Source: an uncultured Methanomicrobiales archaeon (GTDB lineage Archaea > Halobacteriota > Methanomicrobia > Methanomicrobiales > Methanospirillaceae). Taken from it: DNA of 64,000 nt. The stretch spans positions 186,001 to 250,000 of the forward strand of contig CAILCG010000014.1 in NCBI GenBank assembly GCA_903832665.1, read 5' to 3'. Under the pieces are notes generated by a model. It was not told the DNA's origin, ran no database searches, and saw nothing but the letters and a program-made list of their open reading frames with translations. Every line of letters begins with the position of its first letter. The first letter of the stretch is position 1. Both the position numbers and the translations under genes were made by a program. This document shows positions 20,216 to 30,746 of the stretch, in pieces.

Positions 20216-22252
20216 TTAAAACGGATAATCATCAGGGTTACTGATATAATTCACAAGATTCTTGAAAGTTACATGCGTTCCACCACTGGAAACATAGAAA
20301 CCATCGCGGGCGATAACGACTCCCTCGAAGGACCCGCCCTGGAACGTTACCTTTCCATTGGGGGCAAAGAATACACCAGTAACGCCACCTCCCCCAAATC
20401 CAGTTAAGGTGATATCCCCATTGCTGGCTACAATTACCACATTAGTTGCAACTGAGCTTGAGGAGCTGGGTGCAGCATAACTGCTTGCAAATATTTTCAT
20501 ATTGCTGGTCAATGCTCCCCCGGATACATATCCCCGTGCCGCATACCAGTCAGCAGATTTTACCGGAGGCATATCCGAGTCAGGCATAGTTACTGTCGGA
20601 ACGGTTGCTACCTGGATGCACTTGGTTACAATTTCGGGATGATTGAAGTTGGTGGGGATAGTGAACTTGCCGGTATAGTAGATATAGGAATTACTGTCAA
20701 GCGTCGGCGTATTGTCTAGGGAAAGATCGCCATTAACGTACACATTTCCGTGGATGTGGGCGTCTTTCAGATAGAAGTTCTGCGAAACATACACGTTCCC
20801 GTATATATCCCTCTGTCCACTCCCCAGGTACAGATTTCCATTGACATAGATAGCTCCAGGATTACTTGGAGAGCCCAAACCCGCACTACCGCCGTCAAGG
20901 GTAACATCGCCTCCAATATAGATGGTTTTGACCGCGATTGAGGCCCCTCCATTCAGGTCATTGGTAGTGATGGGGCCAGTAATGACAATCGTGGCATCCG
21001 GTCCTGTTACATCATTACCAGCAAAAATTAACTTATTTCCATAAACAAAGACATTCTCACTAATGACAAAGTCAATAAAGGACTTTTTCATTACCTGAAT
21101 GTAGTTCACTTTTGATACGGTACTGGAACTAAGTCCTTTTGTCACGGTCAGATTGACCGTGTAATTCCCTTTGTCCGCATAGGTATGCTGTGGGTTCTGG
21201 ACAGTTGACGTGCTGCCGTCACCAAATGCCCAGTTCCAACCGGTTGGAGTACCTGTGGACTTGTCGGTGAATGAAACAAGGAGGGGTTTCGATCCGGATG
21301 TCGGGGTCCCGGTAAAGTTTGCAGCAAGGGGTGAGATAACGGTGATATAATTCGTCCGGATTAACGTCTTGCTCCCACCGGCATTGCTTACCGTCAGGTT
21401 AACCGAATAGATCCCGGGTGTCGTGTAGGTGTGTAATGGGCTCCCATAGGTCGAGGTGTTGCCGGAGCCAATGTCCCCAAACGTCCAGATCCACGCGGTA
21501 GGAGTTCCCGTTGAGGTATCCGTGAACTGCACTGCCAGCGGTGCGGTTCCGGATATCGGGTTTCCGGTAAAGTTAGCAACGGGTGCGGGAATAACGACAG
21601 CCTTGAATGTTGCACTGATGGAATGGTCTGAACCGACATTCGTGAATGGGTAACTTGAAATTGGTCCCTGCGATGCGCCATCGACAGCGACATCCAAAAG
21701 GGAGTACCCGGCGTTCGGAGCTATCGTGAAGGTCTGGCTGTTGCCGGCATTCACCTTCACGGAACCGGTGGGGGTAATAGTGCCGCCAGAACCTGCTGAT
21801 GCAGATATGGTGAAAACCGTGACATCCGGCTGCACACTTGTCTTGTCACCGAGTAAGACGGAAGTGATGAGGGCAGCGTTAGTACCATGCTTCGGGGATT
21901 CGGTATAGACGACATCAACTTTCGAGGGCATTGTATCTGCCGTATAAGAAAGGACCTCCCCTGCGGACCAGGTATTATCCGGATCGAATCCCATAAACTG
22001 GGCGGTGCGCAGTGTTCCATCGACATAGATCTGAATCTTGTCCTGCTGTAAGGAGTCACCGCCGGCATGATATAATTTTACCAGTTTGCTTTCATTGGTA
22101 ATTTGCAGATTCACTGCGAGATTTTTGTCCGGGGGGGATGACGAGAACAGACCAATGGCAATAACTGCTATCACAACTACAAAAATCGAGATGAGCATGA
22201 GGACGCCCACCATCTCTGCAGCTCCTCGCTCACGTGTGGTTTCCGGTTGCAT
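20216..22252 (-). CDS. Type IV pilin-like surface protein with two PKD domains
   Basis: After a short leader (QPETTRERG) comes AAEMVGVLMLISIFVVVIAV, the archaeal type IV pilin N-terminal helix with the E five residues after the cleavage-type Gly. Then follow an Ig-like repeat of the B-repeat kind (SAGSGGTITPTGSVKV ... GYSLLDVAVDG), two PKD domains (each with P-L-x-V-x-F-T-D-x-S-T-G-T-P-T-x-W and HTY) at about residues 225-310 and 312-395, and a C-terminal region of about 260 residues rich in short beta repeats (YVNGNLYLGSG, NVYVNGDLSLD). It is probably a large extracellular adhesin. The ATG at 22252 is preferred because GAGAGGG precedes it by six bases. First of three pilin-like genes read on the minus strand from 24566. 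Confidence 0.85.
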   Translation of the reverse strand: MQPETTRERGAAEMVGVLMLISIFVVVIAVIAIGLFSSSPPDKNLAVNLQITNESKLVKLYHAGGDSLQQDKIQIYVDGTLRTAQFMGFDPDNTWSAGEVLSYTADTMPSKVDVVYTESPKHGTNAALITSVLLGDKTSVQPDVTVFTISASAGSGGTITPTGSVKVNAGNSQTFTIAPNAGYSLLDVAVDGASQGPISSYPFTNVGSDHSISATFKAVVIPAPVANFTGNPISGTAPLAVQFTDTSTGTPTAWIWTFGDIGSGNTSTYGSPLHTYTTPGIYSVNLTVSNAGGSKTLIRTNYITVISPLAANFTGTPTSGSKPLLVSFTDKSTGTPTGWNWAFGDGSTSTVQNPQHTYADKGNYTVNLTVTKGLSSSTVSKVNYIQVMKKSFIDFVISENVFVYGNKLIFAGNDVTGPDATIVITGPITTNDLNGGASIAVKTIYIGGDVTLDGGSAGLGSPSNPGAIYVNGNLYLGSGQRDIYGNVYVSQNFYLKDAHIHGNVYVNGDLSLDNTPTLDSNSYIYYTGKFTIPTNFNHPEIVTKCIQVATVPTVTMPDSDMPPVKSADWYAARGYVSGGALTSNMKIFASSYAAPSSSSSVATNVVIVASNGDITLTGFGGGGVTGVFFAPNGKVTFQGGSFEGVVIARDGFYVSSGGTHVTFKNLVNYISNPDDYPF

Positions 22253-22506
22253 GAACATCCCTCTCAAATAATCTATAGACGATATCTACCGGAGAATCCG
22301 GTTGTTATATTCATGTAAAGATTTTACTATTATATCAACTGATCCAGACGGCAAAAAGAGAATGCAACATATTTTCCATACGAATAAACCACGATTCACG
22401 AAGAGAAATGCGGAGGAAAGCCCTCAACCAGTCCAAACGAATTATCGATTTGCTGGATCGTTTTATTACGTATCTTAAAAGAGAGGTAAGGAATCAGAGG
22501 CTCATC

Positions 22507-23604
22507 TCAGGTAACGGTGCCGCTACCGACAAAATACATGCTCTTGGTCCGGTTATCATGCTGGAGGACAAAGATGCCAGTAGTTGTTGGTCCGACATTG
22601 TTGATTGTTGTTGTAACAGCAGTTGTTGTCCTGTTCCAGATCTGGCTGGAAAAGGTCTGGGATTTCGCATCGGACGGATACCGGTTCACAACAAGTTCGA
22701 TGTTATACGTACCCGGAGAACCTGAAATTGCCAGGGTTGACCGCAGATCCTTATAGCCCGTGACCCAGGTATTATTGATAGCAACAGCGCCCAGGTTGAG
22801 GTCACCGCCACTCCGGTTGGTGATGGAGAGCGTTGCTTTTTCAGCAGTCAGTTCCCAAATCTGGTCCCCAATACCGAATGCACGCACACCGGGTGAGAAC
22901 CCGGACCCGACAAACGGCGTGATCGCAACATTATTTCCAATAGCCAGCGGGACCATGACCGGGCTGGATGCTGCAGACGGAGTGTAAAAGATAGTGGAAT
23001 TTATCTTCGTGATATTGAACTGAATGGACCCTGACAGGATTTGCATCCCGCCCTCTTGGTAATAATTCACCGAATTGTTCGTCATATTCTGCATCAACTG
23101 CGATACAGAGATCACAGGGGGATACGTAGTCCGGGAGAGTGCATCCGGATTCGTTGTAACCGATGCTGCAATAACAGATGAAGATGCAGAACGAAGCACA
23201 ACCCCCCCGCTTCCGGTAGCGTTATAGATAATTGCAACATTATGGGCACCCGAGGGGACACCGGTAAGAATGAGATTTTGTCCCAAAGACCACTCATTCC
23301 CACCTCCGGAAATTGTGTATGGTTTTATGGTTCCATCGACAAGGACAGAAAAATCCCCTTGTTTTAAGGTATCGCCCCCGTTATGATACAGGTACAGGTT
23401 GTTACTATTGTCACTGCCGGTCATGAAATTGATATTGGGAATTTTCTGAGGCGTGGGTTGTGAGAAAAGGAGCATGCTGATGATGGCAATCGCCAGTACA
23501 ACCAGAGAGATCATCAGAATTGCCCCGATAATCTCAGAGACTCCTGATGTCGTATCGGATCTCCATTGAGATGTTCGTTTGGGGTGCGAATTATTTCTCA
23601 TCAT
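22507..23604 (-). CDS. Type IV pilin-like protein, 365 aa
   Basis: The N-terminus has a basic leader, then SGVSEIIGAILMISLVVLAI, an archaeal pilin-type helix with Glu in the +5-like position. The next 60 residues (LYLYHNGGDTLKQGDFSVLVDG) match the corresponding segment of the neighbouring pilin gene (LVKLYHAGGDSLQQDKIQIYVDG), showing common descent. The remainder is a Ser/Thr/Asn-rich beta domain with no PKD repeats. The start lies five bases after the stop of the upstream frameshifted gene. It is likely processed by a class III signal peptidase; no pilus ATPase is nearby. Confidence 0.8.
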   Translation of the reverse strand: MMRNNSHPKRTSQWRSDTTSGVSEIIGAILMISLVVLAIAIISMLLFSQPTPQKIPNINFMTGSDNSNNLYLYHNGGDTLKQGDFSVLVDGTIKPYTISGGGNEWSLGQNLILTGVPSGAHNVAIIYNATGSGGVVLRSASSSVIAASVTTNPDALSRTTYPPVISVSQLMQNMTNNSVNYYQEGGMQILSGSIQFNITKINSTIFYTPSAASSPVMVPLAIGNNVAITPFVGSGFSPGVRAFGIGDQIWELTAEKATLSITNRSGGDLNLGAVAINNTWVTGYKDLRSTLAISGSPGTYNIELVVNRYPSDAKSQTFSSQIWNRTTTAVTTTINNVGPTTTGIFVLQHDNRTKSMYFVGSGTVT

Positions 23605-23609
23605 TTCTA

Positions 23610-24566
23610 TCAGGATATCGCCGATGCGATGCTGTTGAGGGTCACATCGTATTCAGCAGGCTGGAGTTTCAGGAACACATTCGCAGCAGATATATTCATA
23701 AAAGCGGTTGCCGGGCTCGATCCCGGGGGACTGATGCCATACTCATTCTGTGCAATGGTAAAGATTTGCCCATTCCGTCTCGTTGTGTTAAAGACATCGA
23801 GCCACATCCTGGCGGCGTTGTAATCTGAAACCTTCACAGAGACATTTACCCAGGAATTCTGGACCGCAACCTGTTCCGTTTGATTCAGGTTTCTAAACCT
23901 TGTATCAACACGGACCGGACCATTCCCCCCCATACTCCCAACACCGTACAACCGTATGGGGGTTATCGTCACGGATTTTGTCGTAGCATCGTTTGCTACA
24001 AATGATATGGGAGGGGATACGCGACAGGTTGACCCATTATCCTGGGAAAGAAAGACTCCCCCGCTCTGGTAATAGTACGTCTGTTGGATCCAGTAATCAG
24101 TAATAATTCTGCGACTTGTACTCAAGAATACTCATAGTATAGGTTTTGAAGACCGGTCCGGCAGGACCATTCGATGTGACGGTCATCGTATCCCCAGTGT
24201 CTTTTACCGCAAGAACCGCAGAAGATGCGATAGGGTTGAGCATCGGCAGGAACAATCCACTTGCCTGGGTATTTCCCCCGCCGGTACCAAGATTCATGGA
24301 TGTCGAAAGAGTCACCCCGCTCTGGCTCCAGGATGCACCGCTTGGGCTGTTAACCCAGAGAGAGTCGAGACTTATTTTATAATCAGTAAACCGGTCTTTC
24401 ACCTCATTCATCTGGGTAATCTCAGCTTCGCGCCCATTGGCAGGAACAATATAGATCATCCAGAGGGCAAATGCGCAACGAGAACTCCCAGGAGCAGGAT
24501 GAACCCTACCACTTCAGACAAAGCCAGCTCATAATTCTGGTCCGGGATACCGCGTTTTTCTGCCAT
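23610..24566 (-). pseudogene. Third pilin-like gene, broken by two frameshifts
   Basis: Three frames join into one protein. The first (24456-24566) gives MAEKRGIPDQNYELALSEVV and a hydrophobic helix; the second (24097-24459 region) continues AFALWMIYIVPANG and ends SQNYY; the third (23610 to about 24100) continues WIQQTYYYQSGGVFLSQDNG. At each junction a one-base change restores the frame, and the joined text is smooth on both sides. The layout is again archaeal pilin-type helix plus a beta-rich outside domain. TTTATA at 24596-24601 would give a start about six bases before the ATG. Whether this is decay or base-calling error cannot be decided from the text. Confidence 0.7.
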
Positions 24567-24601: not shown

Positions 24602-24736
24602 TGTTGTTTGTCAGAAATCTCGGTTTATCGCAAAAGCGTAGGTAAACATCATCCAAGTGTGTAGAATTTTTCAGAAAAAGGTAAATTCCGTGCCCCATGA
24701 TTACTCAGAAGTGTTTTGTGCTTTGCTCTCAAAAAA

Positions 24737-24744
24737 GTATAAAG
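24737..24744 (+). promoter_or_regulatory. TATA box for the radical SAM / cis-prenyltransferase genes
   Basis: GTATAAAG is centred about 35 bases before the ATG at 24775, predicting a leader of roughly nine bases. Confidence 0.5.
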
Positions 24745-24774
24745 AAATCTCCCTTAAGATACCGTTGTATAACC

Positions 24775-25767
24775 ATGACACTCTCACAAGGCTGCATTCT
24801 CTGTCACCAGGGCGCAAAGCTGGTCCTCTTTGTTACAGGAAGGTGCCACCGCACCTGCTGGTATTGCCCACTCTCTTCCGAACGCAAGGGAACCGATACC
24901 GTATTTGCAAACGAGTACCCGGTAGATATTCCTGCCCAGATCATTGAAGTTGCGGAGAGTATGAGCGCTCTGGGTACCGGCATCACAGGAGGAGAACCGC
25001 TGCTGGTGCTGGACAAGGTGACCGCATATTGCCGTCAGCTGAAAACACATTTCGGGCCGGAACACCAGATTCACCTCTATACTGCAAAGGCTCCAACCGA
25101 TGCAGAACTCGCAGAGATGCAGGGACTGGTAGATGAGATACGCCTGCATCCTCCCCAGGAATGCTGGGAAAAAATCCATGAATCCGATTTCATCCGGTCG
25201 GCAAAGCGGGCAAAAGAGATGGGCTTTGATATCGGTATCGAGATTCCGGCATTGCCCGGGCTCGAACACCTTGTACCGGCCCTGCCATACGTAGACTTCC
25301 TCAACATCAATGAACTCGAATGGGGGGAGTCAAACGCGTACCAGATGCGGGAGCGGGGGTACGAACTTGCTGATGAACTGCACAATGCAATTGAGGGTGC
25401 AAAGGGATGGGCAGAAGAACTCTGCCGGCACGACAAGGTGCACTGGTGCTCATCTGCATTCAAGGACTCGGTGCAATTGCGGGAACGGTTGAAGCGGATC
25501 GCACAGAACACCGCACGTGCCTTTGATGAGATTACCGATGACGGCACGATCGTTTACGGGGTCATAAAACCATCAGAATCCAATAAGGGTCAATGTCTCA
25601 GGCTCTGCAAAGATACATGTGAACCGGACAGTTACGAGGATTGTGGTGACCGGATCGAGATGGCATGGTGGCTGTTAACGGAACTTTCCGACCAGATGGA
25701 CGGGGAGAAATTTGTCATCGAACGATACCCCAACAAAGGCATGATAGTTGAGATGACCCCCTTATGA
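24775..25767 (+). CDS. Radical SAM protein of unknown substrate
   Basis: The cluster motif CHRTCWYC (C-x3-C-x2-C) near residue 26 and the ITGGEPLLVLD segment near 70 identify a radical SAM enzyme, which splits S-adenosylmethionine with a 4Fe-4S cluster. Extra Cys lie at the N-terminus (CILC) and near the C-terminus (CLRLCKDTC, EDCGD), possible ligands for a second cluster. A start at 24775 is preferred since a TATA box lies 35 bases before it and the residues before are unlike the family. The last four bases overlap the start of the cis-prenyltransferase gene, suggesting linked expression and perhaps a step in lipid or glycan metabolism. Confidence 0.85.
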   Translation: MTLSQGCILCHQGAKLVLFVTGRCHRTCWYCPLSSERKGTDTVFANEYPVDIPAQIIEVAESMSALGTGITGGEPLLVLDKVTAYCRQLKTHFGPEHQIHLYTAKAPTDAELAEMQGLVDEIRLHPPQECWEKIHESDFIRSAKRAKEMGFDIGIEIPALPGLEHLVPALPYVDFLNINELEWGESNAYQMRERGYELADELHNAIEGAKGWAEELCRHDKVHWCSSAFKDSVQLRERLKRIAQNTARAFDEITDDGTIVYGVIKPSESNKGQCLRLCKDTCEPDSYEDCGDRIEMAWWLLTELSDQMDGEKFVIERYPNKGMIVEMTPL

Positions 25768-26534
25768 TCCTCCGCACGCTGATCGATCCCCTGTACGAGC
25801 GATATCTCAAAATGCAGTGCAGGCATGTGCCCAATCATATTGCCATCATCCAGGATGGCAACCGGCGATATGCGAAACAGCGGGGAGTGGATACCGCCCG
25901 GGGGCACCGGGCTGGGGCGGACAAGACAGAGGAGATGCTGGACTGGGCACATGAACTCGGTATCAGTCATATCACCCTCTACACCTTCTCAACCGAAAAC
26001 TTTTCCCGCCAACAGGATGAAGTGGGGAACCTTTTTGCCCTGTTTAAGGAGAAGTTCACCAGCATCCTCACCGATGAACGGGTAAAAAAATACAAGATCC
26101 GCGTCCAGATGGTGGGGGATCGGTCACGACTTCCCGAGGACCTGCAGGCGGCAATAGATGCAGCTGAAGACGCAACAAAAGACCACGCCGGGTTTCATCT
26201 CAACATTGCTCTTGCCTACGGCGGGAGAAACGAGATCGTCCTGGCTGCCCGCGAGATCCTTAATGAAGTGAAGAACAAGGGGATCAACCCGGATACCATT
26301 GATGTCAATACGGTGGAGCAGCACCTTCATTCGGGAAAGGGGATACCTCCGGTAGACCTGATCATAAGGACAGGAAATGAATACCGCACATCAAACTTCC
26401 TGCCATGGCTGGCAAACGGCCATGAATCGGCAGTCTATTTCTGTGCCCCGTTCTGGCCCCTGTTCCGGAAGATCGACCTCTTACGTGCCATCCGTACCTA
26501 CGACCAGCGAATCTCTGCAAAGAACGGGTCCTGA
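25764..26534 (+). CDS. uppS: Cis-prenyltransferase catalytic subunit (UppS family)
   Basis: This family joins isopentenyl diphosphate units in cis to make the dolichyl- or undecaprenyl-type lipid that carries glycans. Catalytic features are intact: IIQDGNRRYA with Asp31, TLYTFSTENFSR, and the diphosphate-binding RTGNEYRTSNFLPW. At the C-terminus the protein ends RTYDQRISAKNGS, without the R-x-G motif that homodimeric bacterial enzymes use to complete the partner active site. A degenerate paralogue at 27458-28087 has that motif, so the two may form a heteromer. It overlaps the radical SAM gene by four bases. Confidence 0.93.
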   Translation: MILRTLIDPLYERYLKMQCRHVPNHIAIIQDGNRRYAKQRGVDTARGHRAGADKTEEMLDWAHELGISHITLYTFSTENFSRQQDEVGNLFALFKEKFTSILTDERVKKYKIRVQMVGDRSRLPEDLQAAIDAAEDATKDHAGFHLNIALAYGGRNEIVLAAREILNEVKNKGINPDTIDVNTVEQHLHSGKGIPPVDLIIRTGNEYRTSNFLPWLANGHESAVYFCAPFWPLFRKIDLLRAIRTYDQRISAKNGS

Positions 26535-26609
26535 TTCTTTTGGGTTTTAAAAAAGTTCAGATCGCGTACTATATTTCCCTGTGCAGACAGATCAACCATG
26601 TGACGGCTC

Positions 26610-27314
26610 ATGACGGGAAAAAAAGAGACTGAGATCGCGTGGCGTCATACATCTGTTATTGTACGGGCGGATATCTTTACAAAGGCGCACGAACAGGGCA
26701 TCGATATCTCGGATATTTGCAATAAGGCACTTGCGGGCATCCTGGGAATGGATTACCGCCAGCACCATGTCGATGACGCGCTGGTAACCCGGCCGGTAAT
26801 CATTGCACAGAATGCTCCTCCGGCAGAAGAAAATATCCATACCCCCGGGGGTCATCCGGCACACCTGACAGGCCACACCCCGGTCATCAATGCGGATGAT
26901 CCCGCAGCCAGCCTGACCGTGAGAAGTGCTAAACGCCTGCCGAGATCCCAGCCACCTCACAAAGAAACGGGGGATGCGATTGTCCCGTCGCACCCAAATA
27001 AAGAGAAAGGAGTTTTGCAACAGGAAGATGATGCAGCTCACGAGGGAAGGACTAAAAAATCCACTTCCGGAAAAACCCAGAAAAATGATGGACTCAAAAA
27101 ATTTGTCTCAACAAAGATCACCCGCAGTGATACCATTGACTCCGTAGTCTCCAAAGACGACATGTACCAGACATTTACCCGGTTCTGCAATGAACACAAA
27201 TATGCGCCGGTACCGGATCGCAAGGCATTCACCCTTGCCCTGAAAAACAAATTCGCCTTTTTTGACAAGACGATAAACGGAGTGCCCAGCTGGGTAAATG
27301 TACGGTTACAATAA
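26610..27314 (+). CDS. Hypothetical protein, 234 aa, between two cis-prenyltransferase genes
   Basis: The first 55 residues (WRHTSVIVRADIFTKAHEQG, then DISDICNKALAGIL) resemble a short strand-helix-helix DNA-binding or antitoxin-like fold. A Pro/His/Lys-rich linker of about 110 residues follows. The C-terminal 55 residues (MYQTFTRFCNEHKYAPVP, DRKAFTLALKN) are a compact helical domain that looks like a winged-helix domain of D5-type primases. The nucleic-acid role is inferred only. It is read toward the convergent gene at 27458. No family is firmly recognised. Confidence 0.6.
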   Translation: MTGKKETEIAWRHTSVIVRADIFTKAHEQGIDISDICNKALAGILGMDYRQHHVDDALVTRPVIIAQNAPPAEENIHTPGGHPAHLTGHTPVINADDPAASLTVRSAKRLPRSQPPHKETGDAIVPSHPNKEKGVLQQEDDAAHEGRTKKSTSGKTQKNDGLKKFVSTKITRSDTIDSVVSKDDMYQTFTRFCNEHKYAPVPDRKAFTLALKNKFAFFDKTINGVPSWVNVRLQ

Positions 27315-27457
27315 CGGCTCCCGGACCGCAAAAAAACATATCTCAAAAATTATTAACAATTTTTAAAGATTCCGACAAAAATTTCGCTGTTATCCAGAGA
27401 TCGCTTCCGTGATGCGGGAACCTGTTTTTTTGATCAATAAAAATCTGAAAAACCTGG

Positions 27458-28087
27458 TTATTTCCCGAAGCGGCGCATCCGGGACTGGTAGTCTCGCAAT
27501 ATCCGCAGGAAATCCACCTTCCTGAAATATTTCCAGTTCACATCAGAGAAGAAGAGCTCAGAATAGACGGACTGCCAGATGAGGAAATCGGTGAGATGAT
27601 CCCCCCCGCTCTTGATCACCATATCGGGGGTGTATTTGAATGTCAGATAGGATTCCAGGAGTTTTTCGTCCACCTCTTCAGGGGCAATGCGGGCCTCCGC
27701 CATCCTCCTGATGCAGGAGCTAATCTCCCCCCTGCCGCTCTTTCCGATTGCTACAACAACATCCATACCCTCACCAATCTCCTCTTCAGTGTCTCCCACG
27801 TGGAGTATCAGATGGGCAATGGTGCCAATCTTCCTGATCTCAGCAAGGCACTTTTTCATATCTTGGGGAGACGGGGTTGCGATATAGAATGTAAGACCAC
27901 GGATCACCGGCTGATCGGATGCCTGATGTTTAGAAATATATGCAGAGATCTCGGTACACCAGGATGTAGCCAGATAGAGTTTTTCCGGGGCATCTGCCAT
28001 ATCCTGCCCACTTATCATGAAACAAACATTCCCCGGCAGCTCCGTGATCTGCCGTTTGAGCATCTGTTCATAAAGCCAGTACATCAT
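27458..28087 (-). CDS. Non-catalytic cis-prenyltransferase-like subunit (NgBR/Nus1-like)
   Basis: The protein aligns along its length with the UppS homologue at 25764: LYEQMLKRQITELPG with LYERYLKMQCRHVPN, and DMVIKSGGDHLTDFLIWQ with DLIIRTGNEYRTSNFLPW. The catalytic Asp of DGN is replaced (MISGQ, Ser26), and the diphosphate-binding Arg residues are gone (KSGGDHL). It ends SRMRRFGK, an R-x-G motif at the C-terminus as in eukaryotic NgBR/Nus1, the regulatory subunits of two-part dolichyl-diphosphate synthases. A two-part enzyme of this kind has, as I recall, been described in Methanosarcina. The ATG at 28087 is chosen because GGGAAGGAAC precedes it. Complementarity with the neighbour strongly suggests a heteromer. 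Confidence 0.82.
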   Translation of the reverse strand: MMYWLYEQMLKRQITELPGNVCFMISGQDMADAPEKLYLATSWCTEISAYISKHQASDQPVIRGLTFYIATPSPQDMKKCLAEIRKIGTIAHLILHVGDTEEEIGEGMDVVVAIGKSGRGEISSCIRRMAEARIAPEEVDEKLLESYLTFKYTPDMVIKSGGDHLTDFLIWQSVYSELFFSDVNWKYFRKVDFLRILRDYQSRMRRFGK

Positions 28088-28221
28088 GTTCCTTCCCATT
28101 ATTGGAAAGTCAAAGGTAAAGAGACTTGAGGATTGCAAAAGGGCGTCCCGGAGTTATACCGGGGCATCCTCAACCCAAATCAATAAAGTCAGATGGCACA
28201 CAGATATGAAAAGAGATTATC

Positions 28222-28899
28222 ATGCAGCCTTCCCAGAGGGAAGATTATCTGGAGGCCGTCCAGTTCTTCTCTGAAAAAAATGCCCGCTATCCCAGCTATG
28301 AAGAACTTGCGGCAACCCTTTCGAAGACCGTGGACAGGGTTCGCTCAGATATGGCAGAACTGGGATCCAAAGGAGATATTATCATAGCAGCTGACGGGAC
28401 AATCACGCTGACACTGCAGGGAAAACAGACGGGAACCTGTGTCATGAAAAAGCATGAGACACTCCAGTGTTTTTTATCCGAGATTCTCGGAATGGATTCC
28501 TCGTCAGCTTCTGAAGAAGCCTGCACGCTTGAACATGCAGTATCGGATGAGACCATTGACCGGCTGGGAAAACTGATAGTAACCCACGATCACCTGCTGC
28601 ATAATGGAAAGGGAGAGTACAAAAAAACCGATGATGAAAAGACGTGCAGGGTTGAGGCTGATGATTTCTGCAAATCCCCCAGCATTTCCGATTTTTCCGA
28701 GGGGGAAGTGGTTATAATCCAGTGCATCCACGGCAGGGCATGTGCCCAAAGGCTCCTCGATCTTGGTCTTGTACCGGGGGAACGTGCCACGATCCGGAGA
28801 AAATTATCCAACGGTGCACTTGTTGTACAGGTCAAAGGATGCGATGTAGCAGTAAGTCCGGAGATCGCATCTGCAATTGGCGTGGAGCGTTTGCCATGA
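28222..28899 (+). CDS. DtxR-type metal-dependent regulator fused to FeoA
   Basis: The first 60 residues are a DtxR-like winged helix (EDYLEAVQFF, then YEELAATLSKTVDRVRSDMAEL). The middle has the metal-sensing dimerisation pattern with EEACTLEHAVSDETIDRL, retaining the Cys, Glu and His ligands of the family. The last 75 residues form a FeoA SH3-like domain (ACAQRLLDLGLVPGERATI ... GCDVAVSPEIA). It probably represses iron uptake when ferrous iron is high and also supplies the FeoA function to FeoB. Its stop overlaps the feoB ATG (ATGA), so they are translationally coupled. Confidence 0.88.
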   Translation: MQPSQREDYLEAVQFFSEKNARYPSYEELAATLSKTVDRVRSDMAELGSKGDIIIAADGTITLTLQGKQTGTCVMKKHETLQCFLSEILGMDSSSASEEACTLEHAVSDETIDRLGKLIVTHDHLLHNGKGEYKKTDDEKTCRVEADDFCKSPSISDFSEGEVVIIQCIHGRACAQRLLDLGLVPGERATIRRKLSNGALVVQVKGCDVAVSPEIASAIGVERLP

Positions 28900-30746
28900 A
28901 AATTGCGCTCCTGGGAAACCCGGGAGTGGGTAAATCCCTTATCTTTAACCAGCTCACGGGTCTGGGGGTTGAAGTCAACCGGTATCCGGGTTCTTCCGTT
29001 GCGCTGGAGTGCGGTAATGTCTGTTACAAGCAGGAAAAAACCGAAATCGTCGACCTGCCGGGCATCTACTCCCTTGATGGTAACTCGGAAGAAGAGACAC
29101 TGGTGCGCACGTTTTTAACGAGTGGCGGGGCGGATGTGATCGTTGCCGTCATTGATGCTACCAAACTCGAGAGAAATCTCTACCTGTTTGTTCAGGCCGC
29201 AGAATTCTCCCCTAAGATGATTGCAGTCGTCAATATGATCGACGAAGCAGACCGTCAGGGCCTGCTTATCGATGCCGACAGCCTTTCCTCGCACCTTGGG
29301 GTTCCCGTCATTCTGGCCGCTGCATCGGAAGGCCGAAATATTGACAGAATTCTTCCCGTTGCACTGGGTCAGGCAACTCCCGCAAGGGTGCATGTACCGT
29401 ACGATCACCATATCGAAGCTGCCTTAAAAAGCCTGGAAAAGACGATCGGGACCCCCATGCATACAAACCTGCTCGCACTTCAGGGAACAGGAAATGATCC
29501 GGTGCTTCTCGATGCCGCTGGGGCGATCGCACAGGAGATCGGGATGCGCCATCGGATGTCTGTAAGCCAGATCATCGCAACAAACCGGCATAACTTTGCC
29601 CGGGAGATCACGGCTTCTGTAGTCAAACGCTCAAATCACAAGAAACCCTATGATCTCGACAGCCTGCTTACCCGGACATTTCCCGGCATCCCAATTCTCT
29701 GTACTATCCTCTTCCTGTTGCTCATGTCAGTTTTTTTGATCGGCTCATGGATGGAAGAGATCATCGTTGAGGTTTTCACGGCATCAGTTATCACGCCGTT
29801 TCTGGCTCTCGGATTGCCACCCCTGGCAAACCAGCTTGGTTTTTCCCTTTTGATTGCACTTCAGGCGGGTCTTGGCATCGCATTTCCTTTCATTTTTACC
29901 TTCTATATCGGGCTCTCTCTTCTCGAAGATACCGGGTACATGACCCGGGCTGCCTTCCTTGCAGACCGGGCCATGCACCGGATCGGGTTACATGGCGAGG
30001 CGATAATTCCTATGGTGATAGGATTTGGGTGCACAGTCCCTGCGATCATGAGCCTGCGTCTGCTCAAGACACGGAGGGAACAGACTATAGCGGCATGCCT
30101 CGTCACTATGATACCCTGCTCTGCCCGGACCGTAGTCATTGCAGGTATTGTCGCTGCCTTTGTTGGTATTCTCTGGGCATTTTCCATCTACCTGATCATT
30201 TTTATTCTGCTCATCCTCACTGCAATTGTATTAAGTCGCATTACACCAGGTGAGCAGTTCGGAATGATTGTGGAGATGTCCACACTCCGGATGCCGCAGG
30301 CTCACCTGGTACTCTCAAAATCCTGGCTCCGGATCAAAGAGTTCCTTTTCATTGCAATGCCGGTCCTGATCGGCACGAGTATCCTTCTGGGCCTTTTCCA
30401 GTATTTCGGAATGACCGAATTGTTCGAACAGTTAGTGTCTCCCGTGACCGTCACCCTGCTCGGGTTGCCGGGTTACGCATCCACGGCACTCCTGTTCGGC
30501 GTGTTCAGGAAGGAACTCGCCTTCGAGACACTTGCCGTTCTTTCCGGTACCGCAAACCTTGGATCCGTGATGACCAGTGTCCAGTTGTACACATTTGCGA
30601 TTGTAAGTGTTCTCTTTGTTCCCTGCGTATCTACCATTGCAGTACTGTACCGTCAATTAGGAGCGAAAATCGCCATAATTACCTCAGTTTATACGGTATT
30701 CCTCGGTCTTCTCATCGGAGCAATTATAAACATTCTGATGAAATGA
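28896..30746 (+). CDS. feoB: Ferrous iron transporter FeoB
   Basis: The N-terminal G domain has GNPGVGKS at residues 7-14, DLPGIYSL and the NMIDEA form of the N-K-x-D site. The membrane part holds two gate repeats; the second has FGCTVPAIMSLRLL and IPCSARTVV, and the first contains GYMTRAAFLADRAMHRIGLHG, the classic FeoB signature. At 616 aa it is a shorter archaeal form. It imports Fe2+ and needs GTP hydrolysis. The start at the ATGA overlap with the DtxR-FeoA gene replaces any need for a separate FeoA. Confidence 0.97.
   Translation: MKIALLGNPGVGKSLIFNQLTGLGVEVNRYPGSSVALECGNVCYKQEKTEIVDLPGIYSLDGNSEEETLVRTFLTSGGADVIVAVIDATKLERNLYLFVQAAEFSPKMIAVVNMIDEADRQGLLIDADSLSSHLGVPVILAAASEGRNIDRILPVALGQATPARVHVPYDHHIEAALKSLEKTIGTPMHTNLLALQGTGNDPVLLDAAGAIAQEIGMRHRMSVSQIIATNRHNFAREITASVVKRSNHKKPYDLDSLLTRTFPGIPILCTILFLLLMSVFLIGSWMEEIIVEVFTASVITPFLALGLPPLANQLGFSLLIALQAGLGIAFPFIFTFYIGLSLLEDTGYMTRAAFLADRAMHRIGLHGEAIIPMVIGFGCTVPAIMSLRLLKTRREQTIAACLVTMIPCSARTVVIAGIVAAFVGILWAFSIYLIIFILLILTAIVLSRITPGEQFGMIVEMSTLRMPQAHLVLSKSWLRIKEFLFIAMPVLIGTSILLGLFQYFGMTELFEQLVSPVTVTLLGLPGYASTALLFGVFRKELAFETLAVLSGTANLGSVMTSVQLYTFAIVSVLFVPCVSTIAVLYRQLGAKIAIITSVYTVFLGLLIGAIINILMK

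Follow-up and report, generated by a model that had tools for sequence, protein, structure and literature searches.

Cis-prenyltransferases made of two different proteins are already known from eukaryotes and from one archaeon, Methanosarcina mazei. The M. mazei enzyme, a heteromer of the paralogs MM_0618 and MM_1083, was reportedly described by Emi et al. in 2019. This heteromer forms C45-50 products, which match the C50 glycosyl carrier lipid of M. mazei and are likely made for it (PMC8131916). In the eukaryotic enzymes (human DHDDS/NgBR and yeast Rer2/Nus1), a catalytic subunit that lacks the C-terminal R-x-G motif is paired with an inactive subunit. The C-terminus of human NgBR has been shown to reach over the dimer interface and to form part of both diphosphate sites of DHDDS. 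NgBR binds the S2 phosphate through the backbone nitrogen atoms of L291 and G292, and the carboxylate of its terminal K293 touches R37 and R85 of DHDDS (PMC7573591). In the bacterial homodimeric UppS of E. coli and B. subtilis, by contrast, the catalytic residues and the R-x-G are all found on one chain. A further archaeal cis-prenyltransferase, the versatile C/O-prenylating MM_0014/MA1831, also lacks R-x-G; it is a single protein with the motif PDGNRRW and a TLGG end.

The DNA analyzed here (the window) is a stretch of 64,000 nucleotides from an uncultured Methanomicrobiales archaeon. It carries two cis-prenyltransferase homologs, which were found in the following setting:

24697..25767, + strand: radical SAM protein (PF04055/PF13353); stop codon shared in part with the start codon of the catalytic gene (ATGA)
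25764..26534, + strand: predicted catalytic cis-prenyltransferase subunit with a DHDDS/Rer2-like role, 256 aa (PF01255, invariant residues, AlphaFold2 model)
26610..27314, + strand: intervening gene; CcdA-like N-terminus and winged-helix/primase-like C-terminus, both by weak matches
27458..28087, - strand: predicted non-catalytic partner with an NgBR/Nus1-like role, 209 aa (PF01255, orthologs, tail, model)
27458..27475, - strand: codons of the C-terminal R-R-F-G-K tail and the stop (translation; R205 and G208 invariant)

The two homologs very probably form a heteromeric long-chain cis-prenyltransferase in which the tail of the partner completes the active site of the catalytic subunit and which makes the carrier for N-glycosylation. 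A preliminary description of this DNA had proposed such a split enzyme, and its coordinates, strands, translations and residue statements for both genes were all correct. The Methanosarcina precedent that it named also proved to be real (MM_0618 and MM_1083; PMC8131916). The window pair would share with these two proteins the division of labor and the role of the product, a likeness that is drawn from their published description and not from their sequences.

Complementary residues in the catalytic and partner proteins

The product of 25764-26534 matches PF01255 far over the cut-off (236 bits), along profile positions 1-214 and without reaching the profile end. Its translation contains HIAIIQDGNRRYA and RTGNEYRTSNF and ends in ...DQRISAKNGS. 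The residues needed for catalysis are present (Asp31 of DGN, Arg34/35, Arg82, Arg202/208 and Ser210) and the C-terminal R-x-G is absent. D31, R34, R35, N79, R82, R202, R208 and S210 are kept in 154/154 catalytic sequences (153 distinct proteins and the window protein), and their equivalents in human DHDDS are D34, R37, R38, N82, R85, R205, R211 and S213. An R-x-G occurs somewhere in the tail, at a varying place, in 28 of these 154 sequences, a few of them having it one residue out of register (e.g., ..QRIRAGE); self-sufficiency is therefore possible in those species. The AlphaFold2 model of the window protein (pLDDT 83.7) has the cis-prenyltransferase fold. Human DHDDS is its best match (7pb1_A; Z 25.3, rmsd 3.0, 244 residues), and bacterial UppS is level with it (7jli; Z 24.6, rmsd 2.9, 237 residues). 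Unlike DHDDS, the window protein has no C-terminal extension of the DHDDS type.

The product of 27458-28087 also matches PF01255 far over the cut-off (79 bits), and here the match (profile 112-219) covers the profile end with the R-x-G. The gene starts with ATG at 28087; an in-frame TTG is also present at 28138, and the alignment of relatives begins at the Met before [IM]xWLYE. The protein reads CFMISGQDMAD at the position of the catalytic IIQDGNRRYA, contains KSGGDHLTDF, and ends in RMRRFGK. The Arg/Arg/Ser set of the IPP site is replaced by Lys159/Leu165/Asp167, and across 159 distinct partners the equivalents of R202/R208/S210 are mostly Lys (or Arg), Leu and Asp. None of the 159 has DGN at the catalytic position, the sole DGN string (L048/L092) lying inside an insertion. 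The chain ends exactly one residue past the final Gly in 159/159 partners, and the Arg of R-x-G is kept in 155, the remaining four having Lys or Thr. With the window partner included, R205 and G208 are found in all sequences and R206 in 156/160. Three very divergent partners (L205, L206 and L207; 164-229 aa, 31-46 bits) still end in R-R-F-G plus one residue.

Two of these features are shared with NgBR/Nus1. Human NUS1 (..QRLGK) likewise ends one residue past the motif Gly, and the tail of yeast Nus1 is NVGK. The stretch from the lost DGN to the next Trp is shortened to 15 residues in the window partner, as in human NUS1 (15), and to mostly 15-17 in its relatives; it measures 22 residues in yeast Nus1 and 29 in catalytic proteins. 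The archaeal partners differ from NUS1 in being one residue shorter in the diphosphate-site loop, and from NgBR/Nus1 in lacking the N-terminal membrane anchor. Reading of the 209-aa sequence gave no N-terminal transmembrane anchor, and the first helix of the domain lies at the start. The partner model (pLDDT 84.5) keeps the cis-prenyltransferase fold. Among the matches listed, the best is 5hxp_A (Z 15.5, rmsd 2.7, 179 residues) and the matches are generic cis-prenyltransferases; no NUS1 chain is among the best 50 rows, in which one chain per entry is shown.

Complementary loss, with the catalytic Asp on one protein and the R-x-G on the other, thus holds in nearly every one of the 154 catalytic and 159 partner sequences, which indicates that the pattern of the window pair does not reflect chance. 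Bacterial UppS has the same fold as both proteins, the catalytic residues of the 25764 product and the R-x-G of the 27458 product; neither window protein carries DGN and R-x-G on one chain. The partner has kept R-x-G and one further residue even though its own active site is gone, and such a tail makes sense only if it acts in another subunit. The elements needed for this are in place in the window pair: R34 and R82 on the catalytic protein, and R-F-G-K with a free C-terminus at Gly+1 on the partner.

From human DHDDS/NgBR and the M. mazei enzyme, we infer complex formation, tail insertion, the product and its physiological role. The 25764 product, which has no tail motif of its own, would bind the allylic diphosphate, Mg2+ and IPP and carry out the chemistry. 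The 27458 product no longer has the catalytic Asp or the residues that bind IPP, but it keeps the fold. Its C-terminal R-x-G, ending at Gly+1, is predicted to cross the dimer interface into the catalytic active site and there to organize both diphosphate sites. A polyprenyl diphosphate of roughly C45-C60 is the expected product, which could serve as the glycosyl carrier for AglB-dependent N-glycosylation once dephosphorylated and partly reduced. The earlier reading of a split site, a heteromer and a carrier lipid is consistent with residue conservation, the structure models and the M. mazei pair.

A different reading would have each protein act as a homo-oligomer, the 25764 product being a self-sufficient homodimer without R-x-G and the 27458 product working separately, with the same fold, as a regulator or lipid-binding protein. 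Homodimers of this kind have precedents: MM_0014, which ends in TLGG and has no R-x-G, forms an active homodimer (PMC8131916), and human DHDDS and yeast Nus1 can each homodimerize if expressed alone (PMC7573591). The 25764 product has QDGNRRY and ends in SAKNGS, so it is not of the MM_0014/MA1831 type; paralogs of that type occur separately (L219 and L222) and are absent from the window genome. Independent homo-oligomers also leave unexplained why R-x-G plus one residue is preserved in nearly all 159 partners despite the lost active site. Such an arrangement is thus considered very improbable.

Distribution and gene arrangement within the phylum

Exactly two PF01255 genes are present in the window genome, both within the window. 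Co-occurrence in other genomes, which the preliminary description had named as a check, was followed by sampling genomes within the archaeal phylum. In the order, 144/150 genomes match PF01255, nearly all of these with two genes. In the phylum as a whole, the partner-protein profile matches 287/295 genomes, nearly always with two genes, but it also catches the catalytic paralog and this figure is no partner count by itself. The full-length and C-terminal-half types were therefore counted in a sample with at least one genome per family, where they occur together in 44/46 genomes; the two genomes with neither type both belong to one family, f12. Both halves are present in 44/44 sampled genomes that have any cis-prenyltransferase, which again argues against two independent homo-oligomers. 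Searches of five f12 genomes (G155, G164, G173, G182 and G189; 75-91% complete) gave no cis-prenyltransferase. The split into catalytic subunit and tail donor is thus close to universal among the sampled families of the phylum, and the presence of the complementary pair in nearly every one of them is what this survey adds.

The two genes of the window are convergent, with 26610-27314 between them. Convergence was observed in 150/151 fetched loci holding both genes, a set that is partly redundant and whose counts, here and below, include that redundancy (loci kept from the contig scan are from this order or close kin). In 21 loci the two genes overlap at their 3' ends, by 186 bases at most; in the others, the distance between these ends reaches about 5 kb. 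The longest overlap, 186 bases between the two open frames, is seen in L207:1222-2766. Because convergent pairs are also seen in families that are far apart within the phylum, this arrangement is probably ancestral. The window differs in this respect from the sampled family f8, taken as that of Methanosarcina, in which the two genes are unlinked. That the pair is convergent, and not one operon, was counted against the heteromeric enzyme. Close relatives of the window genome have, beside the intact catalytic gene and within the interval between the pair, another copy of it that is decaying. These decaying copies lack DGN and are shortened or broken (L225:3813-4739, L226:3228-3812 and L227:2964-3496).

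The gene at 26610-27314 had been suggested as a further partner, and its position between the pair, in this genus and a sister genus, would suit a third subunit of the complex. Its homologs, found in 8/100 genomes of the order and only in these two genera, occupy the same place between the pair among the fetched loci, where they are confined to this lineage. The other 92/100 genomes lack the gene, yet almost all of them have the pair, in many cases with the two genes overlapping or directly tail to tail. Its Pfam and PHROG matches are weak only (CcdA-like, primase C-terminal and RFX-type DNA-binding models), and this weak similarity to DNA-binding families does not favor a subunit role. A third subunit is extremely unlikely, and a general third partner was rejected on the narrow distribution and the DNA-binding domain hints. 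The gene probably encodes a DNA-binding protein and not an enzyme subunit, and most likely represents an insertion into the convergent junction.

Upstream of the pair, the radical SAM gene is the same-strand neighbor of the catalytic gene in 145/185 loci with that gene, including several families outside the order, and its product could act in the same lipid pathway. Farther out, a run of minus-strand ORFs at 20216-24459 has pilin-like hydrophobic N-terminal stretches, one ORF with PKD-like repeats; the products are probably secreted or surface proteins. On the other side, 28222-30746 is a locus for ferrous iron uptake, in which a DtxR/MntR-type regulator with a FeoA domain precedes FeoB.

The proposed carrier lipid and N-glycosylation

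The window genome has three STT3/AglB homologs over the cut-off, and WWDYG is found in two of those loci. STT3 is present in 7/7 tested genomes having the pair and absent in 4/5 genomes of family f12, which has neither subunit; in this family, carrier-lipid synthase and N-glycosylation appear to have been lost together. The products of the M. mazei enzyme and the co-distribution with STT3 together point to N-glycosylation as the most likely use, with other uses possible.

One such use would be that the heteromer forms as proposed and its main product serves elsewhere, for example as an exopolysaccharide carrier or a membrane isoprenoid. The pair is the sole predicted cis-prenyltransferase activity in the genome, so its product may feed several pathways. 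In addition, one genome (G100, 95% complete) has STT3 with neither subunit found, which was counted against the N-glycosylation reading and fits another main use. Against this stand the largely joint presence and absence of the pair and STT3 in the tested sample and the M. mazei heteromer, which fits the C50 glycosyl carrier chain of that organism (PMC8131916). Another main use is accordingly judged unlikely, and a carrier for N-glycosylation remains the preferred reading.

Origin of the split and the eukaryotic enzyme

A tree built on 64 sequences places the archaeal partners in one clade (98/99) and the archaeal catalytic subunits in a second one (94/90). Two separate clades fit subunits that split once and were then inherited mainly vertically, and the sequences are thus consistent with an ancient split of one origin within the phylum. 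For the tree and profiles, the sequences used for human DHDDS, human NUS1 and yeast Nus1 were compared with PDB chains. Both human sequences were identical over the matched length; yeast Nus1 differed at three positions, where the residues of 6jcn_A were used. The E. coli UppS row is provisional at the level of single residues, and the rest of the bacterial rows, like the plant rows, come from PDB alignments.

Did the eukaryotic NgBR/Nus1 descend from the same inactive archaeal subunit, with a split that arose once at or before the root of the phylum? Holding archaeal partners and eukaryotic NgBR together gave a slightly higher likelihood (p-AU 0.59), with very long NUS1 branches, and a single clade of archaeal partners and archaeal catalytic subunits was not rejected either (p 0.67). 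Taken by itself, human NUS1 matches the archaeal partner profile from one end to the other and the catalytic or bacterial profiles only over the C-terminal half, at similar scores. With yeast Nus1 added to the NUS1 profile, bacterial UppS scores higher and the archaeal partner is not favored. Common descent is possible and should be regarded as doubtful.

If it were true, eukaryotes would have inherited their two-part dolichol synthase from archaea instead of inventing it. The subunits of the human enzyme are encoded by disease genes, and the origin of this synthase becomes a testable phylogenetic question. The archaeal genomes also offer many small, anchor-free pairs for structural study of active-site completion by an inactive subunit. 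For the archaea themselves, the M. mazei case is no oddity: the split has become fixed in almost every family sampled from the phylum, in a pattern that fits a single origin within it.
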